A stretch of 64,000 bases of DNA from Planctomycetota bacterium (GTDB lineage: Bacteria > Planctomycetota > UBA8742 > UBA2392): contig JADLFN010000002.1 in assembly GCA_020845475.1 (NCBI GenBank), forward strand, positions 1 to 64,000, written 5' to 3'. Position numbers and translations under genes: made by a program. Below the pieces are notes generated by a model that saw only the letters and a program-made list of their open reading frames with translations, did no database searches and was not told the DNA's origin. Shown here one piece after another: positions 41,257-47,446 of the stretch (positions are counted from its first letter, which is position 1; each line of letters opens with the position of its first letter).

Positions 41257-41303
41257 CACCACCCCATTTCGTGATGCCACACGGGCCGGGAGGCCCGTGC
41301 TAC
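41227..41303. repeat. pair of identical 24-bp units in inverted orientation
   Basis: The unit GTAGCACGGGCC + TCCCGGCCCGTG at 41227-41250 is repeated exactly as its reverse complement at 41280-41303, 29 bp apart. The first copy encodes the end of MurD. The second contains the TAG stop of the ESCRT-III-like gene on the minus strand. A variant pair lies at 45571-45634. The pair can fold into a large cruciform and may terminate both convergent genes. It resembles REP/BIME-type elements. Confidence 0.85.
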
Positions 41304-41908
41304 TTCGCCTTTTCTTCGTCGGCGCCCATTTCGCCGAGTTCTTTGGCGATTTCTTTGTCGAGTTCCTCGCGCGTCTTCTTTTTGCGCTCCGTGGAAGAAA
41401 TGCCGATCATCTGGTCGATTTCTTCGTCGCTGACCAGCTGCTCGCCGCTGGCGGTCTCGCCTGAGAACAGCGTGTCCTTGCTCATGTCCAAAAACAAATC
41501 CATGCGCTGGCTCATCGTCTCGGCCTGCGCCATGGCGTGCTCGAAGTTGCGCTGCGTCTTTTCCAGATCGGTGGCTTTGTAAACATCGTTGATGCTCTTG
41601 GCCACCACACCCATGCTCTCGGCGAACGTGGCGTAACTCTCCGCCTGGTTCTTCATCTGGAACGCGGCTTCGATGGTCAGCAATTGCCGCTCGATGGCGC
41701 GGCGCTGCGTGGCTGTGGCTTTGAGCGACTTGCGGATGAACGCGAGCTGGTCGTTGGCGCCCATGCGCTGCGCGCGCCGCGCTTTTTCGAGCCACTCTTC
41801 CTCGTTGCGGCCAAGATCCGTGAGCTGGCGCTTGATGCGCTGGATGCCCTTCTTGATTTCCATGTCGCGTTGCATGCGACGTTCTTCTTTGGATTTGAAA
41901 ATTCCCAT
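41300..41908 (-). CDS. ESCRT-III-like coiled-coil protein A
   Basis: This 202-residue protein is almost wholly helical. It starts MGIFKSKEERRMQ. A basic first half has an alpha1/alpha2 hairpin-like pattern (IQRIKRQLTDLGRNEEEWLEKA; AQRMGANDQLAFIRKSLKA; AIERQLLTIEAAFQMKNQAE), followed by AESMGVVAKSINDVYKA, QAETMSQRMDLFLDM and an acidic stretch VSDEEIDQMI, with a charged tail. Length, basic-to-acidic polarity and motif order match ESCRT-III (CHMP/CdvB) proteins, including the CHMP-like M-x-x-x-x-K-x-M/I and the late DxxxD/E segment. It is not an obvious PspA. It lies in a cluster with a Vps4-like ATPase. The assignment is from pattern only and could be generic coiled coil. Confidence 0.6.
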   Translation of the reverse strand: MGIFKSKEERRMQRDMEIKKGIQRIKRQLTDLGRNEEEWLEKARRAQRMGANDQLAFIRKSLKATATQRRAIERQLLTIEAAFQMKNQAESYATFAESMGVVAKSINDVYKATDLEKTQRNFEHAMAQAETMSQRMDLFLDMSKDTLFSGETASGEQLVSDEEIDQMIGISSTERKKKTREELDKEIAKELGEMGADEEKAK

Positions 41909-41951
41909 GGGTACGTCCTCAAGAGCCACGAATCGCACGAATCTTCACCAA

Positions 41952-42362
41952 CTAGCGTATCACCCGTTTGAACTCCAGCTTAGCCGGGTTCCCGAAATTG
42001 ATTATTAGGCAAAGGCTCAATCCGGTTGCTTTGAGGTAGTTGAGGGCCTGTGCTATTTCAACATCGCTGATCTTCGGAACGCATTTTAGTTCAACGATGA
42101 TCTTGCCGAAGCAAACGAGGTCAGCGATGAAGTGCTTGTCCAACCACTCGCCCTTGTACTTGATGCGCAAAACCTTCTGCGACTCAAAAGGAATGGATCG
42201 AAGTCTGGATTCTCGTTCCATGCCTTCCTGGTAAACGGACTCGAGAAACCCAAATCCCAGTTCGTTGTAGACCTCCATAGCCGCGCCAACGATCGCAAAG
42301 GCCTCTTCCTTGAATAGAAGTTCGCCGTCCCTCGCCGAGTTTTGGTGTGAATTGGTGTTCAT
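41952..42362 (-). CDS. GxxExxY family protein
   Basis: This 136-residue protein carries the naming motif GFGFLESVYQEGM and a PD-(D/E)xK-like core (FIADLVCFGKIIVELKC), as expected of GxxExxY proteins, a widespread nuclease-fold family of unsettled role often scattered by transfer. Its base composition is visibly lower in GC than the genes on either side. It interrupts the ESCRT-like cluster between protein A and the zinc-ribbon gene, so I consider it a later insertion rather than a component. Confidence 0.85.
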   Translation of the reverse strand: MNTNSHQNSARDGELLFKEEAFAIVGAAMEVYNELGFGFLESVYQEGMERESRLRSIPFESQKVLRIKYKGEWLDKHFIADLVCFGKIIVELKCVPKISDVEIAQALNYLKATGLSLCLIINFGNPAKLEFKRVIR

Positions 42363-42369
42363 TGGTGGC

Positions 42370-42822
42370 TCAACCCAAACATCCTTTGAATATTAAGCCC
42401 TGGAACATCAGCAAGAGGATCAGCACGGCGGTAATCAGCATGCAGCCGCGCGCGTTGGTTCCTGTTTGATTGGGGATGGGGCCGGCGACCGTGAAATCAG
42501 CGTGGTTGGCCGCGAAATCGCGCTCGGTCACCAAGTCGCCCAGGCCGTTTTCCTGCGAGCAGCCGGGGCATTTTGCGGGCGCGAGCAATTCCTCGGGCCA
42601 GTGGTAGCCGCAACTGGAGCACACGTTCTGGGTGTCGCGATCGAAGACTTCGTCGTCGAGGTCCTCGACCATCATCTCGCTTGAAATGTACGCCGAGCAG
42701 CCCAGGCAACGGAATTGCTTGAGCTTGGGGTGGGGGATCTCGCTGTAGCCCTTGGCGCAATAGGGACAGCGCGTGAGGTGCTTTTTCGCGAGACGAATCA
42801 GTTGGCGTTCATGGTCTACCAT
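42370..42822 (-). CDS. tail-anchored zinc-ribbon protein
   Basis: This 150-residue protein has four CxxC knuckles, CPYC (19-22), CLGC (39-42), CSSC (68-71) and CPGC (85-88), forming two zinc ribbons. An acidic spacer (EDLDDEVFDRD) lies between the second and third. A single hydrophobic helix near residues 127-145 (MLITAVLILLLMFQGLIF) lies almost at the C-terminus, so the ribbons probably face the cytoplasm on a tail anchor. The start overlaps the upstream membrane gene by seven bases. In context it could recruit the ESCRT-like proteins to the membrane; that is inference. Confidence 0.7.
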   Translation of the reverse strand: MVDHERQLIRLAKKHLTRCPYCAKGYSEIPHPKLKQFRCLGCSAYISSEMMVEDLDDEVFDRDTQNVCSSCGYHWPEELLAPAKCPGCSQENGLGDLVTERDFAANHADFTVAGPIPNQTGTNARGCMLITAVLILLLMFQGLIFKGCLG

Positions 42823-43190: not shown

Positions 43191-44429
43191 CTAGTCCTGA
43201 TCCTGCCGCCAATCGAGATAGCGCGCGGCTTCTTCGGGCGAGGTGACCGGGCGGATGCCTTCGGCAGCGACCTGGAAATCGCGCAGCGTGAGCGAGCGCA
43301 CTTTGACCTGATAGTTCTTGGCCTGGGCCAGCCCCTTGTCGATGATGTCCGGCAAATCGGCGTTGAGCTCGGAAATCATCGTGCTTGTCACCTGCTTGAC
43401 GATGCGTTCGATCTCGCGGCCAGAGTAGCCGTCCGTGAGCTTCACAAGCTCCGCCATGTCGCAATCGACCACGAAGCCGCGCTTTTCGGTTTGGATGCGC
43501 AGGATGGCCTCGCGCGTGATCGGGTCGGGGAGCGGAATGAGAATCTGCTTTTCAAAGCGCGAGAGCACCGCGTTATCGATTTCCCACGGGCGGTTCGTGG
43601 CCGCGATGGTGAGCACGAAAATGTCGGTGCGGCCTTTTTCCGTCAGGCCATCGAGCTCGCTCAGGATCGTGCTCAGGATCCTTCTTTCGGCGCCGCTTTG
43701 CTCGTCAGAGCCGCGCGAGGCCGTGAGCGATTCGAACTCATCAAGAAAGACCACGCTGGGGCTGTTGTCGCGCGCGGTACCGTAGATTTCGGAGATGATC
43801 TTGGAGCTCTCGCCGAAATACTTGCTCATCACGCCGCTGACTTTTACGTTGAAAAAGAGGGCCTGGCCGTCGCTCGTAACTTTGAGCGCGTTGGAAGTCG
43901 CCGCCGCGATCAGCGTTTTGCCCGTGCCCGGCGGGCCGTAGAACATGATGTTGCGGAATGTGGCAATCTTGACGCCCTTGGGCGGCGTGGCGAGCGAAAG
44001 GCCCAGCGTGTATTTGATGTCGCGCTTGGTCTGCTCCAGCCCGCCGATGTCGTCCCACGTCACGGGCGAGACGTGAATCAGCGAGTTGACGGCGTTGCTC
44101 AGCTCGCTCTTGTTGCCCACGCTCTCGGTCTGCTTGGCATCGACGTCTTCATCAGAGCTGGGCGGAGCCGGCAGCTTGGCGCCCGCGGCCTGTTCGTTGT
44201 GCAGCTCGCGCAGGCGGCCCGCGAATTCGCGATATTCGATGGCTTTGCGTTTGCGCGCATATTCCTGCGAGCGGCTGGTGGCGTGCTCGGCCCACTTGAG
44301 CATGAGCTTGGCGGCAGCGTCAAAATGCTGCGCGGCTTGTTCGGAATCGCCGGCTTTCCAGGCCATCTTGGCCTTGTGCAGCGAATCATCGCAGGCGGAT
44401 TTGAGTTTGGGTCCGAGGTCGAGGCTCAT
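43191..44429 (-). CDS. Vps4-like AAA ATPase with MIT-like N-terminal domain
   Basis: This 412-residue protein is a meiotic-clade AAA ATPase. Residues ~8-80 form three helices with the MIT pattern (AKMAWKAGDSEQAAQHFDAAAKLM, then EYARKRKAIEYREFAGRLREL). After an acidic linker the AAA core begins VTWDDIGGLEQTKRDI. Walker A is GPPGTGKT (165-172), the pore loop MSKYFGES (201-208), Walker B VVFLDEFESL (226-235), sensor 1 ATNRPWEID (277-285) and the arginine finger SRFEKQILIPLP (290-301); GYSGREIERIV (334-344) ends the core. ATNxPWxxD and RFEKxIxIPLP are hallmarks of Vps4/CdvC. Vps4 disassembles ESCRT-III filaments. Its start overlaps the stop of the double-MIT gene by four bases. Confidence 0.88.
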   Translation of the reverse strand: MSLDLGPKLKSACDDSLHKAKMAWKAGDSEQAAQHFDAAAKLMLKWAEHATSRSQEYARKRKAIEYREFAGRLRELHNEQAAGAKLPAPPSSDEDVDAKQTESVGNKSELSNAVNSLIHVSPVTWDDIGGLEQTKRDIKYTLGLSLATPPKGVKIATFRNIMFYGPPGTGKTLIAAATSNALKVTSDGQALFFNVKVSGVMSKYFGESSKIISEIYGTARDNSPSVVFLDEFESLTASRGSDEQSGAERRILSTILSELDGLTEKGRTDIFVLTIAATNRPWEIDNAVLSRFEKQILIPLPDPITREAILRIQTEKRGFVVDCDMAELVKLTDGYSGREIERIVKQVTSTMISELNADLPDIIDKGLAQAKNYQVKVRSLTLRDFQVAAEGIRPVTSPEEAARYLDWRQDQD

Positions 44430-45577
44430 GGTGTGCCACCCTGCGTTTTCCGCAGCCTGCTGCTGAACGTGAGCAGCTTGCAGGCCTTGATTTCGCTGGC
44501 GGCGATTTCTTCGTCGCTCTTGCTTTCGCCCGCTGCGGCCAGCAGCTCCATGGCCGCTTTCTTGAAGTGCTCAGCGGCGCCCTTAAAATTGCCCTCGGCG
44601 TAAGCCTTGCGCGCGAGTTCCATGGCGCCCTGCGTTTGCTGCTCGGGTGCTTTGCGCAGCACGGCCGCGATCTCACGCGCGAATACGCTTGAAAGCATCT
44701 GCTCGATTTCGCGCTGCGGGTCCAGCGCGTTGGCGGCACTCAGGTCATCGGCGATGGCTTCAAAGGCCGAAGCCAGCAAAAAGAAATCGCACTTGTTCAA
44801 CGCGGCCGCGAGTTGCACCACGCGCTCGGCTTTGAAGGCGCCTTCTTCAATGCGGCGCAGGCTGGGCGCGGTCTTGGCTTCGCTGAGATCGGGTGCCGGC
44901 ATTGCGGGCGGCGCCGGTTTTGCCGTGTCTGCGGCTGGCTCGTCGCTGAACTCAAGGTGCAGCACCTCCGACCGCGGCTTCTCGGGCGCTTTCGCTTCCC
45001 CGGAAAGCAGGCGCAGGTGCGGCTGGCTGGGCACTTTTGGGGATTCGTCAGATTTCGCAGCCGCGCTTTCAACGCGGGGCGGAATCTCGGATGACTTGGG
45101 TTTTTCGGCTTCGGGCGGCTTGGGCACGTTGACGGACATTTCAAGCAGGGCTGCGGAATTGTCCGGCGCTTTGCGTTTGGAGGATTCGGCGGAGTCGCGC
45201 GGTGTGGCGGCCTCGATGTCCGCGTTGATGACGGCGAGTTCGCTCTGGCTTTCGGTGCGCAGGCGGTTGGCTTTGCTTTCGTCCGGGAGGCCGTCAACGG
45301 TCAGCGCTCGCAACTGGTTGCATAGGTCGAGCAGTTTGGTGGCTTTGCGCTTGATGACCTGCGCCTGGGCCGGCGCCTGCACGTGAGCGGCGTACTTGCG
45401 CAGCGTGTTGGCGGCGCGTTCGAAGTGGTCGGCGGCGCTGTCGTAATCGCCGTCGTTCCAGCTTTCCGTGCCGGCTTTTTCTTCCTGTTCGGCGATACGC
45501 TTGAACTCGCGGGCGGTTTGCTCGCTGAGGCCGATTTGGGTGTTCGACTGTTGAGGGGCTTTAGCCATGGGTAGCAT
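44426..45577 (-). CDS. protein with two MIT-like helical modules
   Basis: This 383-residue protein carries at residues ~20-92 a three-helix MIT-like module very close in style to that of the neighbouring ATPase (EKAGTESWNDGDYDSAADHFERAANTL, then KRKATKLLDLCNQLRAL). A Pro/Glu/Lys/Ser-rich disordered linker spans ~100-240. A helical segment follows, then a second MIT-like module at ~312-377 (ELARKAYAEGNFKGAAEHFKKAAMELL, then SEIKACKLLTFSSRLRKT). MIT domains bind ESCRT-III C-terminal tails, so this may be a Vta1-like adaptor between filaments and ATPase. ATG 45568 is an alternative start; the start region lies in a palindromic repeat unit. Confidence 0.65.
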   Translation of the reverse strand: MLPMAKAPQQSNTQIGLSEQTAREFKRIAEQEEKAGTESWNDGDYDSAADHFERAANTLRKYAAHVQAPAQAQVIKRKATKLLDLCNQLRALTVDGLPDESKANRLRTESQSELAVINADIEAATPRDSAESSKRKAPDNSAALLEMSVNVPKPPEAEKPKSSEIPPRVESAAAKSDESPKVPSQPHLRLLSGEAKAPEKPRSEVLHLEFSDEPAADTAKPAPPAMPAPDLSEAKTAPSLRRIEEGAFKAERVVQLAAALNKCDFFLLASAFEAIADDLSAANALDPQREIEQMLSSVFAREIAAVLRKAPEQQTQGAMELARKAYAEGNFKGAAEHFKKAAMELLAAAGESKSDEEIAASEIKACKLLTFSSRLRKTQGGTP

Positions 45578-45634
45578 GGGCCTCCCGGCCCATGGTTGTG
45601 CTACTTAGTACACGGGCCGTGAGGCCCGTGTTAC
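45571..45634. repeat. second inverted pair of the 24-bp palindromic unit (variant copies)
   Basis: Unit GTAGCATGGGCC + TCCCGGCCCATG at 45571-45594 faces CACGGGCCGTGA + GGCCCGTGTTAC at 45611-45634. Within each unit the arms carry compensating changes (ACGGGCC/GGCCCGT against ATGGGCC/GGCCCAT), which keeps the stem. On the minus strand one unit provides the start region of the double-MIT gene and the other the TAA stop of ESCRT-III-like protein B. Confidence 0.8.
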
Positions 45635-46242
45635 ACCGCCTTCTCGTCCGTCTCCAGCTTGCGCTTGAGCTCCTGTTCGCTCTTGAGGGCTTCGTCGAAG
45701 CTGCCGGAGCTTTCGGCCTCGACGATGCTGTCGATCTCCTCGAGGAACTGCTTTTTCTCGGGATCGTCATCCATCATGGCTTCTTCGACCTCGAGGCCGA
45801 GCGAATCGAGTGTTGCGTTCAACTCGTCGATGTAGCCCTCTTCGTCAATCTGCGCCAGCGCAAGCTTTGAGTCCAGGCCGCTGTTGCGAATGCGCGTGAT
45901 GAGCTTCTGGATGCTGTTCTTGTCTTTGCGCTTTTCGAGGCGTTCAAGGCCGCGCGTGTATTTCTTGAGCGCGATGCCTTCAAGGTTGGCGATCTTCGCG
46001 GCGCGCTTGTTGAAGGCGAAATCGTGTTTGAGGTCCTTGAGTTCTTCCCAGAGGTAATCGACCTCGATCTGGTTGCCCTCTTTGCGGGCGTTCTTGATCT
46101 GGTCGATGATGCCGCTTTGGCGCGTGGAGAGCTTGCGCACCTCCATGAAATACTTGCGGCGCTCACGCTCGACCTCGCGCAGCTTCACCTTGAGCAAGCG
46201 CGAGTCGATCTTTTGTCCGAAGAGCAGTTGAAAGAATCCCAT
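45631..46242 (-). CDS. ESCRT-III-like coiled-coil protein B
   Basis: The protein has 203 residues from ATG 46242 (a GTG six bases earlier is the other option). It starts MGFFQLLFGQKID, a short amphipathic segment. It is strongly basic and helical to ~residue 110 (REVERERRKYFMEVRKL; NLEGIALKKYTRGLERLEKRK), then IQKLITRIRNSGLDSKLALAQIDEEGYI, then an acidic region (LEVEEAMMDDDPEKKQFLEEIDSIVEAES), and ends EQELKRKLETDEK, which resembles a MIM1 tail (L-x-x-K-L). This is the ESCRT-III polarity. It lies between protein C and the double-MIT gene. Pattern-level evidence only. Confidence 0.55.
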   Translation of the reverse strand: MGFFQLLFGQKIDSRLLKVKLREVERERRKYFMEVRKLSTRQSGIIDQIKNARKEGNQIEVDYLWEELKDLKHDFAFNKRAAKIANLEGIALKKYTRGLERLEKRKDKNSIQKLITRIRNSGLDSKLALAQIDEEGYIDELNATLDSLGLEVEEAMMDDDPEKKQFLEEIDSIVEAESSGSFDEALKSEQELKRKLETDEKAV

Positions 46243-46273
46243 GTGCACCGTCCGCTTTGACTGATCTGTCTTA

Positions 46274-46358: not shown

Positions 46359-47090
46359 TCACTCCGTTTGCGGCTTTTCCTTCACCTCGGCCGCTTTCAG
46401 GTCTTTCTCGCGTTGCGCCATTTCTGATTCGAGCTTGGCCATCTCCGCTTCCATCTCGGCTTCGCTCATTACTTTTTCGGGCGCGGCTTTTTCTTTGAGG
46501 ACCCGCTCGCTTTCGCTCGGGGCTCTGACAACTTCTTCGGCTGGCTTGTTTCCCATCAATTCGCGTTCGAGTTTCTTGAGGTCTTCCTTCTCTGACAAGC
46601 TGAGGATGCCGGTGTCAGTGCTCTTCATCGAATTGGCTGTCTCGATGGACTCCATGTACTTGTCTTTGCGCTCGTCGAAATCCATCGCAAGGCGCTCGAC
46701 CATCTGGCTCTCGATGCCGCGCAGGTTCATGGCCGCAATGGTTTGGTGTTTGTCGACCATGCTTTGCAGCACTTCGATGTTCTTGTTGTAAACGTGGATG
46801 CGATGCTTGAGCGACTCAATGCGCGTGCGATTGCGCTTGATGCTGAGCAACACGACTTCTTTTTCCTGATCGCCAATTTTTCCCGCCTTGAGCTTATCGG
46901 CCTGATCCTTCTCGTGCGACTCAAGGCGCTGCAATTCCTGCATGACTTTGCGCAGCTCGACTTCGTTGCGCGTGATCAGTTCGTCGTAACGGTCCAGCTC
47001 TTCGCGCATGGCTTCCTTGTCCACGGGCTTCTCTTCGTCGGGGTCGCCGCCGCGGCCAAACATGCGTTTGAAGAAATCGCCTAAGCCCAT
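46359..47090 (-). CDS. ESCRT-III-like coiled-coil protein C (Snf7-like N-terminus)
   Basis: This 243-residue protein starts with MGLGDFFKRMFGRGG, closely resembling the amphipathic N-terminus of Snf7/CHMP4 (…FGKLFGAGGG) that inserts into membranes. A short spacer and a long helical region follow (REELDRYDELITRNEVELRKVMQEL; VLLSIKRNRTRIESLKHRI; NIEVLQSMVDKHQTIAAMNLRGIESQMV). A late acidic helix (GILSLSEKEDLKKLERELMG) and a Lys/Glu tail end the protein. I chose ATG 47090 because the longer frame to 47297 runs through a word repeat and the overlapping membrane gene. Alternatives are a PspA-like or generic coiled-coil protein. Confidence 0.6.
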   Translation of the reverse strand: MGLGDFFKRMFGRGGDPDEEKPVDKEAMREELDRYDELITRNEVELRKVMQELQRLESHEKDQADKLKAGKIGDQEKEVVLLSIKRNRTRIESLKHRIHVYNKNIEVLQSMVDKHQTIAAMNLRGIESQMVERLAMDFDERKDKYMESIETANSMKSTDTGILSLSEKEDLKKLERELMGNKPAEEVVRAPSESERVLKEKAAPEKVMSEAEMEAEMAKLESEMAQREKDLKAAEVKEKPQTE

Positions 47091-47446
47091 TTTGGATTTT
47101 CGATTTTGGATTTTGGATTTTCGATTGGGTCGCCAGCCCGCACAGCTTTCCAAGTCGAGATCGGTAAGGCCAACACCAAGCCGTTCAAACAGAAGCCCAT
47201 GAACACAACGCAGAATCCAAGCCAAGCGGGCGGTCCCGAGCCCCCAGGCAAACCAGGCATCCATAACGAACCAACAAACCCTGGCAAGAAAAACCAAGCC
47301 TCACGGAAAGGATCAAGCCAAAGAGGCCAACTCTTTCCGAAGGAAAGACCCAGAGCAACCACAATCGCGAACTGAATCGCCCCGAGCCAGAAAGCAAGCC
47401 GCAACTCGTACGAAGCAAACAACCGGATGTGAGTCACTGAGTTCAA
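47081..47446 (-). CDS. small membrane protein upstream of ESCRT-III-like gene C
   Basis: This 121-residue protein has three hydrophobic stretches (LRLAFWLGAIQFAIVVALGL, AWFFLPGFVGSLWM and PAWLGFCVVFMGFCLNGLVLALPI). The last ~14 residues (IENPKSKIENPKWA) come from a word repeat. The stop overlaps the start of protein C by ten bases, so the two are probably co-translated. No family is recognised. Confidence 0.6.
   Translation of the reverse strand: MNSVTHIRLFASYELRLAFWLGAIQFAIVVALGLSFGKSWPLWLDPFREAWFFLPGFVGSLWMPGLPGGSGPPAWLGFCVVFMGFCLNGLVLALPISTWKAVRAGDPIENPKSKIENPKWA
47091..47128. repeat. TTTTGGATTTTCGA word repeat
   Basis: Tandem TTTTGGATTTT/CGATT words lie immediately upstream of the start of ESCRT-III-like protein C, in opposite orientation to the repeat at 43157. 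The overlapping membrane gene reads through it as IENPKSKIENPK. Confidence 0.7.

Follow-up and report, generated by a model that had tools for sequence, protein, structure and literature searches.

Vta1 has two MIT domains in tandem, followed by about 100 residues of linker and a Vps4-binding VSL domain (PMC5413351). The MIT domains of LIP5 bind the tails of ESCRT-III proteins and render VPS4 recruitment multivalent, and many human MIT proteins are adaptors to other processes (PMC9477494). In a 2024 survey, systems combining Vps4 with ESCRT-III are confined to archaea and eukaryotes (PMC10936438). Another study from 2024 described the transfer of Vps4-like ATPases to several bacterial lineages, with a TPR-6TM gene displacing snf7, and the occurrence of Snf7-clade proteins in some bacteria (PMC11237479). 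Here, we describe an operon of a planctomycete in which a gene for a Vps4-like ATPase is found together with genes for ESCRT-III-like proteins and for a protein with three MIT-like modules (the multi-MIT-like protein). We found no report of this operon or of a multi-MIT partner in the literature that we could search, most subscription papers and preprints being beyond that search.

Results

Layout of the operon and of the multi-MIT-like protein

The window, by which we mean the whole 64-kb stretch of DNA analyzed, contains the open reading frame at 44426-45577 described by an earlier sequence-only reading (minus strand, 383 aa). We set the start of the gene at the ATG at 45568 (giving 380 aa), because the resulting MAKAP N terminus is kept in both same-genus relatives, and the ATG at 45577 lies at the end of a palindrome. 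The gap between the multi-MIT-like gene and its upstream neighbor ccB (45576-45630) is filled by two palindromes, CACGGGCCTCACGGCCCGTG and ATGGGCCGGGAGGCCCAT, and this ATG lies at the end of the second one. The features of the operon are the following:

46359-47096, minus strand: ccA, a helical coiled-coil protein (gene order kept across loci)
45631-46248, minus strand: ccB, ESCRT-III-like by predicted fold (model pLDDT of 82, Foldseek, hhalign)
44426-45568, minus strand: multi-MIT-like protein, 380 aa (the earlier frame from 45577 is 3 residues longer; modules under purifying selection)
45293-45529, minus strand: N module, aa 14-92, a predicted MIT-like three-helix bundle (hhalign, AlphaFold2, MIT structures)
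45206-45280, minus strand: extra helix, aa 97-121 (predicted in the model; kept within the genus)
44858-45196, minus strand: disordered linker, aa 125-237 (pLDDT, dN/dS)
44654-44842, minus strand: middle module, aa 243-305, diverged and MIT-like (hhalign to the ATPase N-domain; three helices modeled)
44441-44635, minus strand: C module, aa 312-376, MIT-like (hhalign to the ATPase N-domain; three helices modeled)
43191-44429, minus strand: Vps4-like AAA ATPase with an MIT-like N-domain at 44190-44429 (its start overlaps the stop of the multi-MIT-like gene as ATGA)
42370-42822, minus strand: zinc-ribbon protein with a C-terminal hydrophobic stretch (between the ATPase and the Snf7-like gene)
41300-41938, minus strand: Snf7/ESCRT-III family protein (Pfam Snf7; CHMP3 by profile)

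From its N terminus, the multi-MIT-like protein thus has the N module, an additional helix, a disordered stretch of about 110 residues, and the middle and C modules in tandem. A single module at each end had been proposed; we instead found three, one N-terminal and two forming a C-terminal pair. The middle three-helix module (aa ~243-305) and the helix at aa 97-121 are additions to the two modules described earlier. The tandem pair was seen both in the model and by profile comparison, the middle module being diverged and modeled at moderate confidence. The proposed disorder of the linker (aa ~125-237) agrees with its AlphaFold2 model, which has no helices there and a pLDDT mostly between 28 and 45. 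The dN/dS of the linker (~0.5 to 0.6) is also well above that of the modules (~0.1 for the N module, 0.05 to 0.2 for the C module, and 0.2 to 0.3 for the middle module). The modules of the protein are under purifying selection.

Directly downstream of the multi-MIT-like gene, and joined to it in the window by the ATGA overlap of stop and start codons, lies the gene for the ATPase. This protein follows the plan of Vps4, with an MIT-type N-domain, an AAA cassette (match at 2.6e-33), and a Vps4_C-type end. Vps4_C was matched in 22 of 24 ATPase homologues at E values of up to 1 (best, 1e-7; window protein, 0.087). The AAA core scores nearer to Cdc48/p97 than to Vps4, partly as a result of the two AAA domains in each Cdc48 chain. 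In four other loci, a second Vps4-like AAA ATPase is encoded directly downstream of the Snf7-like gene (L020:7916-9031, L021:8823-9947, L023:8564-9691, and L027:6445-7593). It scores above the Pfam Vps4_C cutoff in L021, L023, and L027, and the profile of its N-domain is related to the other MIT-like modules.

The modules are related to the N-domain of the ATPase

The sequence-only reading had noted a pattern common to both terminal modules and the N terminus of the ATPase. When all six frames of the 64-kb window were translated, the pattern in its strict form (G-[DN]-xxx-AA-x-HF-xx-AA) had exactly three matches (45451, 44593, and 44351), all on the minus strand and all at the places where it had been quoted: two in the multi-MIT-like protein and one in the ATPase N-domain. 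We then aligned profiles built from 20 homologues of the ATPase N-domain and from 7 homologues each of the N and C modules. The three proved to be mutually related, with hhalign probabilities of 91 to 97%: ATPase N-domain versus N module, 96.8% (E = 2.5e-10); ATPase N-domain versus C module, 95.1% (E = 3.2e-8); and N module versus C module, 91.2% (E = 1e-6). The scores of these pairs (53.7, 43.0, and 36.1) exceeded the maxima obtained with shuffled columns (19.8, 16.4, and 14.2; 60 shuffles per pair). As controls, the modules were compared by profile with three further helical families encoded in this operon, and no relation emerged. The middle module also matched the ATPase N-domain (77.8%; E = 1.9e-5; score of 30.9 versus a shuffled maximum of 13.9), and its direct match to the C module was weak (12.5%; E = 0.0023). 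Judged by these comparisons, the three modules and the N-domain of the adjacent Vps4-like ATPase belong to one domain family.

In a tree of the modules, the middle modules form one clade across genera (99/98), as do the C modules (93/96); the columns are too few to place the duplications in order, including an origin from the ATPase's own domain. Since each of the two modules forms one clade across genera, the orthologues descend from one three-module ancestor.

MIT-like modules rather than TPR units

MIT and TPR domains resemble each other in helices 1 and 2, and scans with Pfam and NCBIfam did not by themselves decide between the two. The multi-MIT-like protein matched MIT (PF04212 type) weakly (E = 0.08 to 0.4; 11.4 bits versus a gathering cutoff of 30). 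On single sequences, Pfam TPR_2 scored slightly above MIT, over helices 1 and 2, with all matches below the cutoff. For the C module, TPR_2 gave the best Pfam match (1.9e-4 when the whole protein was scanned, which is below the cutoff), and it was found in five of the seven C modules, compared with one of seven for MIT. Consensus TPR proteins were also among the matches in PDB profile searches. Together with the likeness of helices 1 and 2, these matches speak for the modules being ordinary TPR units, in which case the protein would be a helical interaction protein without a particular role in ESCRT. We regard this as quite improbable. The TPR matches are single, take up about 24 of 34 positions, and cover helices 1 and 2 (about 24 to 28 residues), and each module has a third helix in the model. 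Tandem 34-residue repeats of two helices are absent from the modules, which occur singly or paired. In the PDB profile search, the TPR matches of the ATPase N-domain end after two helices, whereas its match to the MIT domain of VPS4B/SKD1 (1wr0/2jqh/4u7y) spans positions 6 to 76 and all three helices (E = 0.0046 to 0.022). The link of the modules themselves to known MIT domains runs via this N-domain; the C-module profile matched a chain of Atg38 (E = 0.009).

We also compared the modules at the level of structure, using an AlphaFold2 model built on three sequences, which do not include the orthologues found solely in whole-genome loci. The N module was modeled as a three-helix bundle with a pLDDT mostly between 86 and 94, and the middle and C modules were modeled with three helices each at moderate confidence. 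The search with the whole model was dominated by residues 9 to 126, and the fold comparison thus covers the N module. Its model aligns to the MIT structures of Vps4, MITD1, archaeal Vps4, and katanin over 70 to 80 residues. The root mean square deviation is 1.3 to 3.2 in most rows and the Z score is 9 to 11, a Z score that is not decisive alone, as designed bundles score equally high. By its model, the N module has an MIT-type fold.

Finally, the combined module profile was searched against 20 genomes of the class. The Vps4-like ATPases and the multi-MIT-like protein were retrieved at E values of 1.8e-18 or below, and the next matches were at 3e-4 or weaker. The profile thus singles out these two proteins genome-wide and not the TPR proteins of the same genomes, which again speaks against ordinary TPR units. 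Because of the three-helix match to VPS4B, the structural alignments of the N module, and this specificity of the profile, we call the modules MIT-like and homologous to the local ATPase N-domain. We do not call them members of Pfam MIT, since their score lies below the gathering cutoff; the MIT-like character proposed from the sequence therefore stands in this qualified sense. Ordinary TPRs with no MIT relation, the alternative named in that reading, are not supported by the comparison with MIT and TPR profiles, even though TPR_2 scores slightly better per sequence.

ESCRT-III-like partners in the operon

The core of the operon (ccA, ccB, the ATPase gene, and the Snf7-like gene) is kept in this order in many Planctomycetota loci, and the zinc-ribbon gene is present in the closest relatives and absent from others. 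Among aligned homologues of the 41300-41938 protein, Pfam Snf7 was matched in all 20 at E values of up to 1 (best, 5e-7), with the window protein scoring 23 bits versus a cutoff of 27.3. The family profile matches human CHMP3 along its length (E = 2.7e-4). Sequence profiles thus assign this protein to the ESCRT-III/Snf7 family.

The model of ccB (pLDDT of 82) has a long alpha1-alpha2 hairpin (helices 15 to 55 and 59 to 105) followed by short helices. Its 10 best Foldseek matches all belong to the ESCRT-III superfamily (CdvB, CHMP3, CdvB2, CHMP2A, and Vipp1; E = 0.06 to 0.5), and in a second structure aligner, ESCRT-III rows were interspersed with other coiled coils. The ccB profile matched that of the Snf7-like family (hhalign, 65%; E = 5.9e-5). 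We class ccB as ESCRT-III-like by its modeled fold. No hhalign relation was found between ccA and the other two helical genes of the operon; we therefore do not call ccA ESCRT-III.

Several loci held further genes of note. In the window, a PDDEXK_3 family gene (3.3e-37) is located between the zinc-ribbon and Snf7-like genes (41952-42362); we did not find it in the operon of either same-genus relative. Diverged helical genes occupy the position of ccB in L018:4164-5502 (two in a row), L021:4672-5310, and L023:4481-5125, and the one examined by Pfam had no match. In a metagenome-assembled genome labeled Anaerolineales (Chloroflexota), a Vps4-like ATPase with 45% identity to that of the window comes after a helical ORF that resembles the ccB-type genes and has no Pfam match (L028:5189-7200). 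This locus may reflect a second bacterial phylum with the system or, alternatively, an error in binning.

Distribution of the multi-MIT-like protein

The Snf7-like gene turned up in 55 of the 392 phylum genomes sampled, and every one of the 16 genomes in the window's family has it. The multi-MIT-like gene lies inside the operon only in the window's genus, where the two relatives have it at the same place without the ATGA overlap. A wider search ruled out that the protein is confined to this genus: full-length orthologues, laid out in the same way, are encoded away from the operon in five same-family genomes from other genera. One of these unlinked copies (in G012) is interrupted by internal stops and is either a pseudogene or an assembly error. 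In 8 of the 16 family genomes, all with a Snf7-like gene and many of them incomplete, no full-length match to the multi-MIT-like protein was found. Searches with the full-length profile scored every candidate at the class level and four candidates per genome across the phylum, and the absence of the gene outside the family is therefore provisional. The multi-MIT-like protein is therefore tied to the ESCRT system by the homology of its modules wherever it occurs, and by gene order in one genus only.

Four of the five unlinked orthologues adjoin a methionine sulfoxide reductase (msrA/msrB)-type gene, as assigned by eye. The orthologues in L035 to L038, from other genera, have a short motif (SVVISLDxGDFP) right before the middle module, which is possibly a binding peptide. 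Both the neighboring genes and the kept motif would fit an adaptor that joins ESCRT-III to another process (a cargo, envelope, or stress protein) via the linker or a module, without a direct effect on the ATPase; as noted above, adaptors of this kind are common among human MIT proteins (PMC9477494). In the window's genus, however, the gene adjoins that of the ATPase, and no cargo-type or enzymatic domain was found in the multi-MIT-like protein. We consider such a role a live but rather unlikely alternative.

All 20 class genomes searched were without a match to the FtsZ/tubulin family, compared with 13 positives among 14 control genomes. In three of the FtsZ-negative genomes, the Snf7-like gene was not found either, and a replacement of FtsZ by ESCRT can therefore not be inferred.

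Discussion

By analogy with Vta1/LIP5, the multi-MIT-like protein is probably a multivalent MIT-like adaptor in bacterial membrane remodeling by an ESCRT-III/Vps4-like system. Its modules would bind the C-terminal tails of the ESCRT-III-like proteins encoded in the operon. The flexible linker would let one molecule span two sites, and the adaptor could therefore concentrate or cross-link the ATPase and ESCRT-III filaments, with the ATPase being brought to or held on the filament as in the case of Vta1/LIP5. In the same fashion, the adaptor may tune the disassembly of filaments, here without a VSL domain. The cellular process served might be membrane fission, repair, or division. Weighing against an adaptor are the operon linkage in a single genus, the msr-type neighbors elsewhere, and the half of the family genomes without a match. 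The subthreshold Pfam MIT scores, the slightly better TPR_2 scores, and the moderate model confidence of the middle and C modules also weigh against it.

Neither a VSL domain nor the Vta1 family was matched in the multi-MIT-like protein at E values of up to 10, and its C terminus is an MIT-like module. As no VSL domain was recognized, any direct contact with the ATPase would have to be made in some other way. The homology of the modules to the ATPase N-domain makes common binding sites plausible, and the protein might then serve as a brake or decoy whose modules compete with that N-domain for ESCRT-III tails and hold the filaments until release. The lack of a recognized ATPase-stimulating domain of the VSL type and the patchy presence within the family would suit such a function. 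The translational coupling to the ATPase through ATGA in the window, on the other hand, is no less fitting for a partner than for an antagonist. We consider a brake a live but unlikely alternative.

ESCRT and the logic of its cofactors would be extended to bacteria by a conserved operon that unites a Snf7-family gene with another gene of the ESCRT-III-like kind, the gene for a Vps4-like ATPase, and, in one lineage, that for a dedicated multi-MIT partner. Such an operon is relevant to how old and how widespread ESCRT is. It further offers a specific candidate for the scission of membranes, in a class of which 20 genomes had no FtsZ match. We tentatively raise the possibility that membrane fission in FtsZ-less Planctomycetota is carried out by a complete ESCRT-III/Vps4 machine that has a multi-MIT cofactor of its own; the principle of an MIT adaptor acting on Vps4 at ESCRT-III filaments would then be present, and open to study, in bacteria. 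The role proposed for the multi-MIT-like protein is open to simple binding and ATPase assays.

Among known systems, PspA and Vipp1 of the bacterial ESCRT-III superfamily have a remote common fold with the ESCRT-III-like partners described here, but the 41300-41938 partner is matched by Pfam Snf7. Neither PspA nor Vipp1 is known to have a dedicated Vps4 ATPase bearing an MIT domain. The bacterial Vps4-like AAA proteins described previously are comparable to the ATPase of the window, but there snf7 has been displaced by TPR-6TM (PMC11237479), whereas here Snf7-family and ESCRT-III-like genes are found in the same operon. As in the archaeal Cdv/ESCRT system (CdvB-CdvC), several ESCRT-III-type genes adjoin that of a Vps4-type ATPase with an MIT-like N-domain. 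The planctomycete system differs in being bacterial, in having no recognized CdvA or winged-helix ESCRT component, and in an ATPase core that scores nearer to Cdc48/p97. The multi-MIT protein has no counterpart among the archaeal systems described in the sections considered of the 2024 survey (PMC10936438). With the MIT domains of Vps4 and archaeal CdvC, the modules have in common a three-helix bundle, the signature of helices 1 and 2, and a third helix, and the MIT domain of VPS4B/SKD1 is matched end to end by the ATPase N-domain. They differ in having diverged below the Pfam cutoff, in occurring three per protein, and in not being fused to an ATPase. The likeness to Vta1/LIP5 suggested by the sequence-only reading holds in part: no VSL domain was recognized and the gene linkage is limited to one genus, but the protein combines a probable tandem MIT-type pair with a linker of about 110 aa, resembling in this the architecture of Vta1/LIP5 (PMC5413351, PMC9477494), and its gene lies beside that of a Vps4-type partner. 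The pair is N-terminal in Vta1 and C-terminal in the multi-MIT-like protein, which has its third module at the N terminus.
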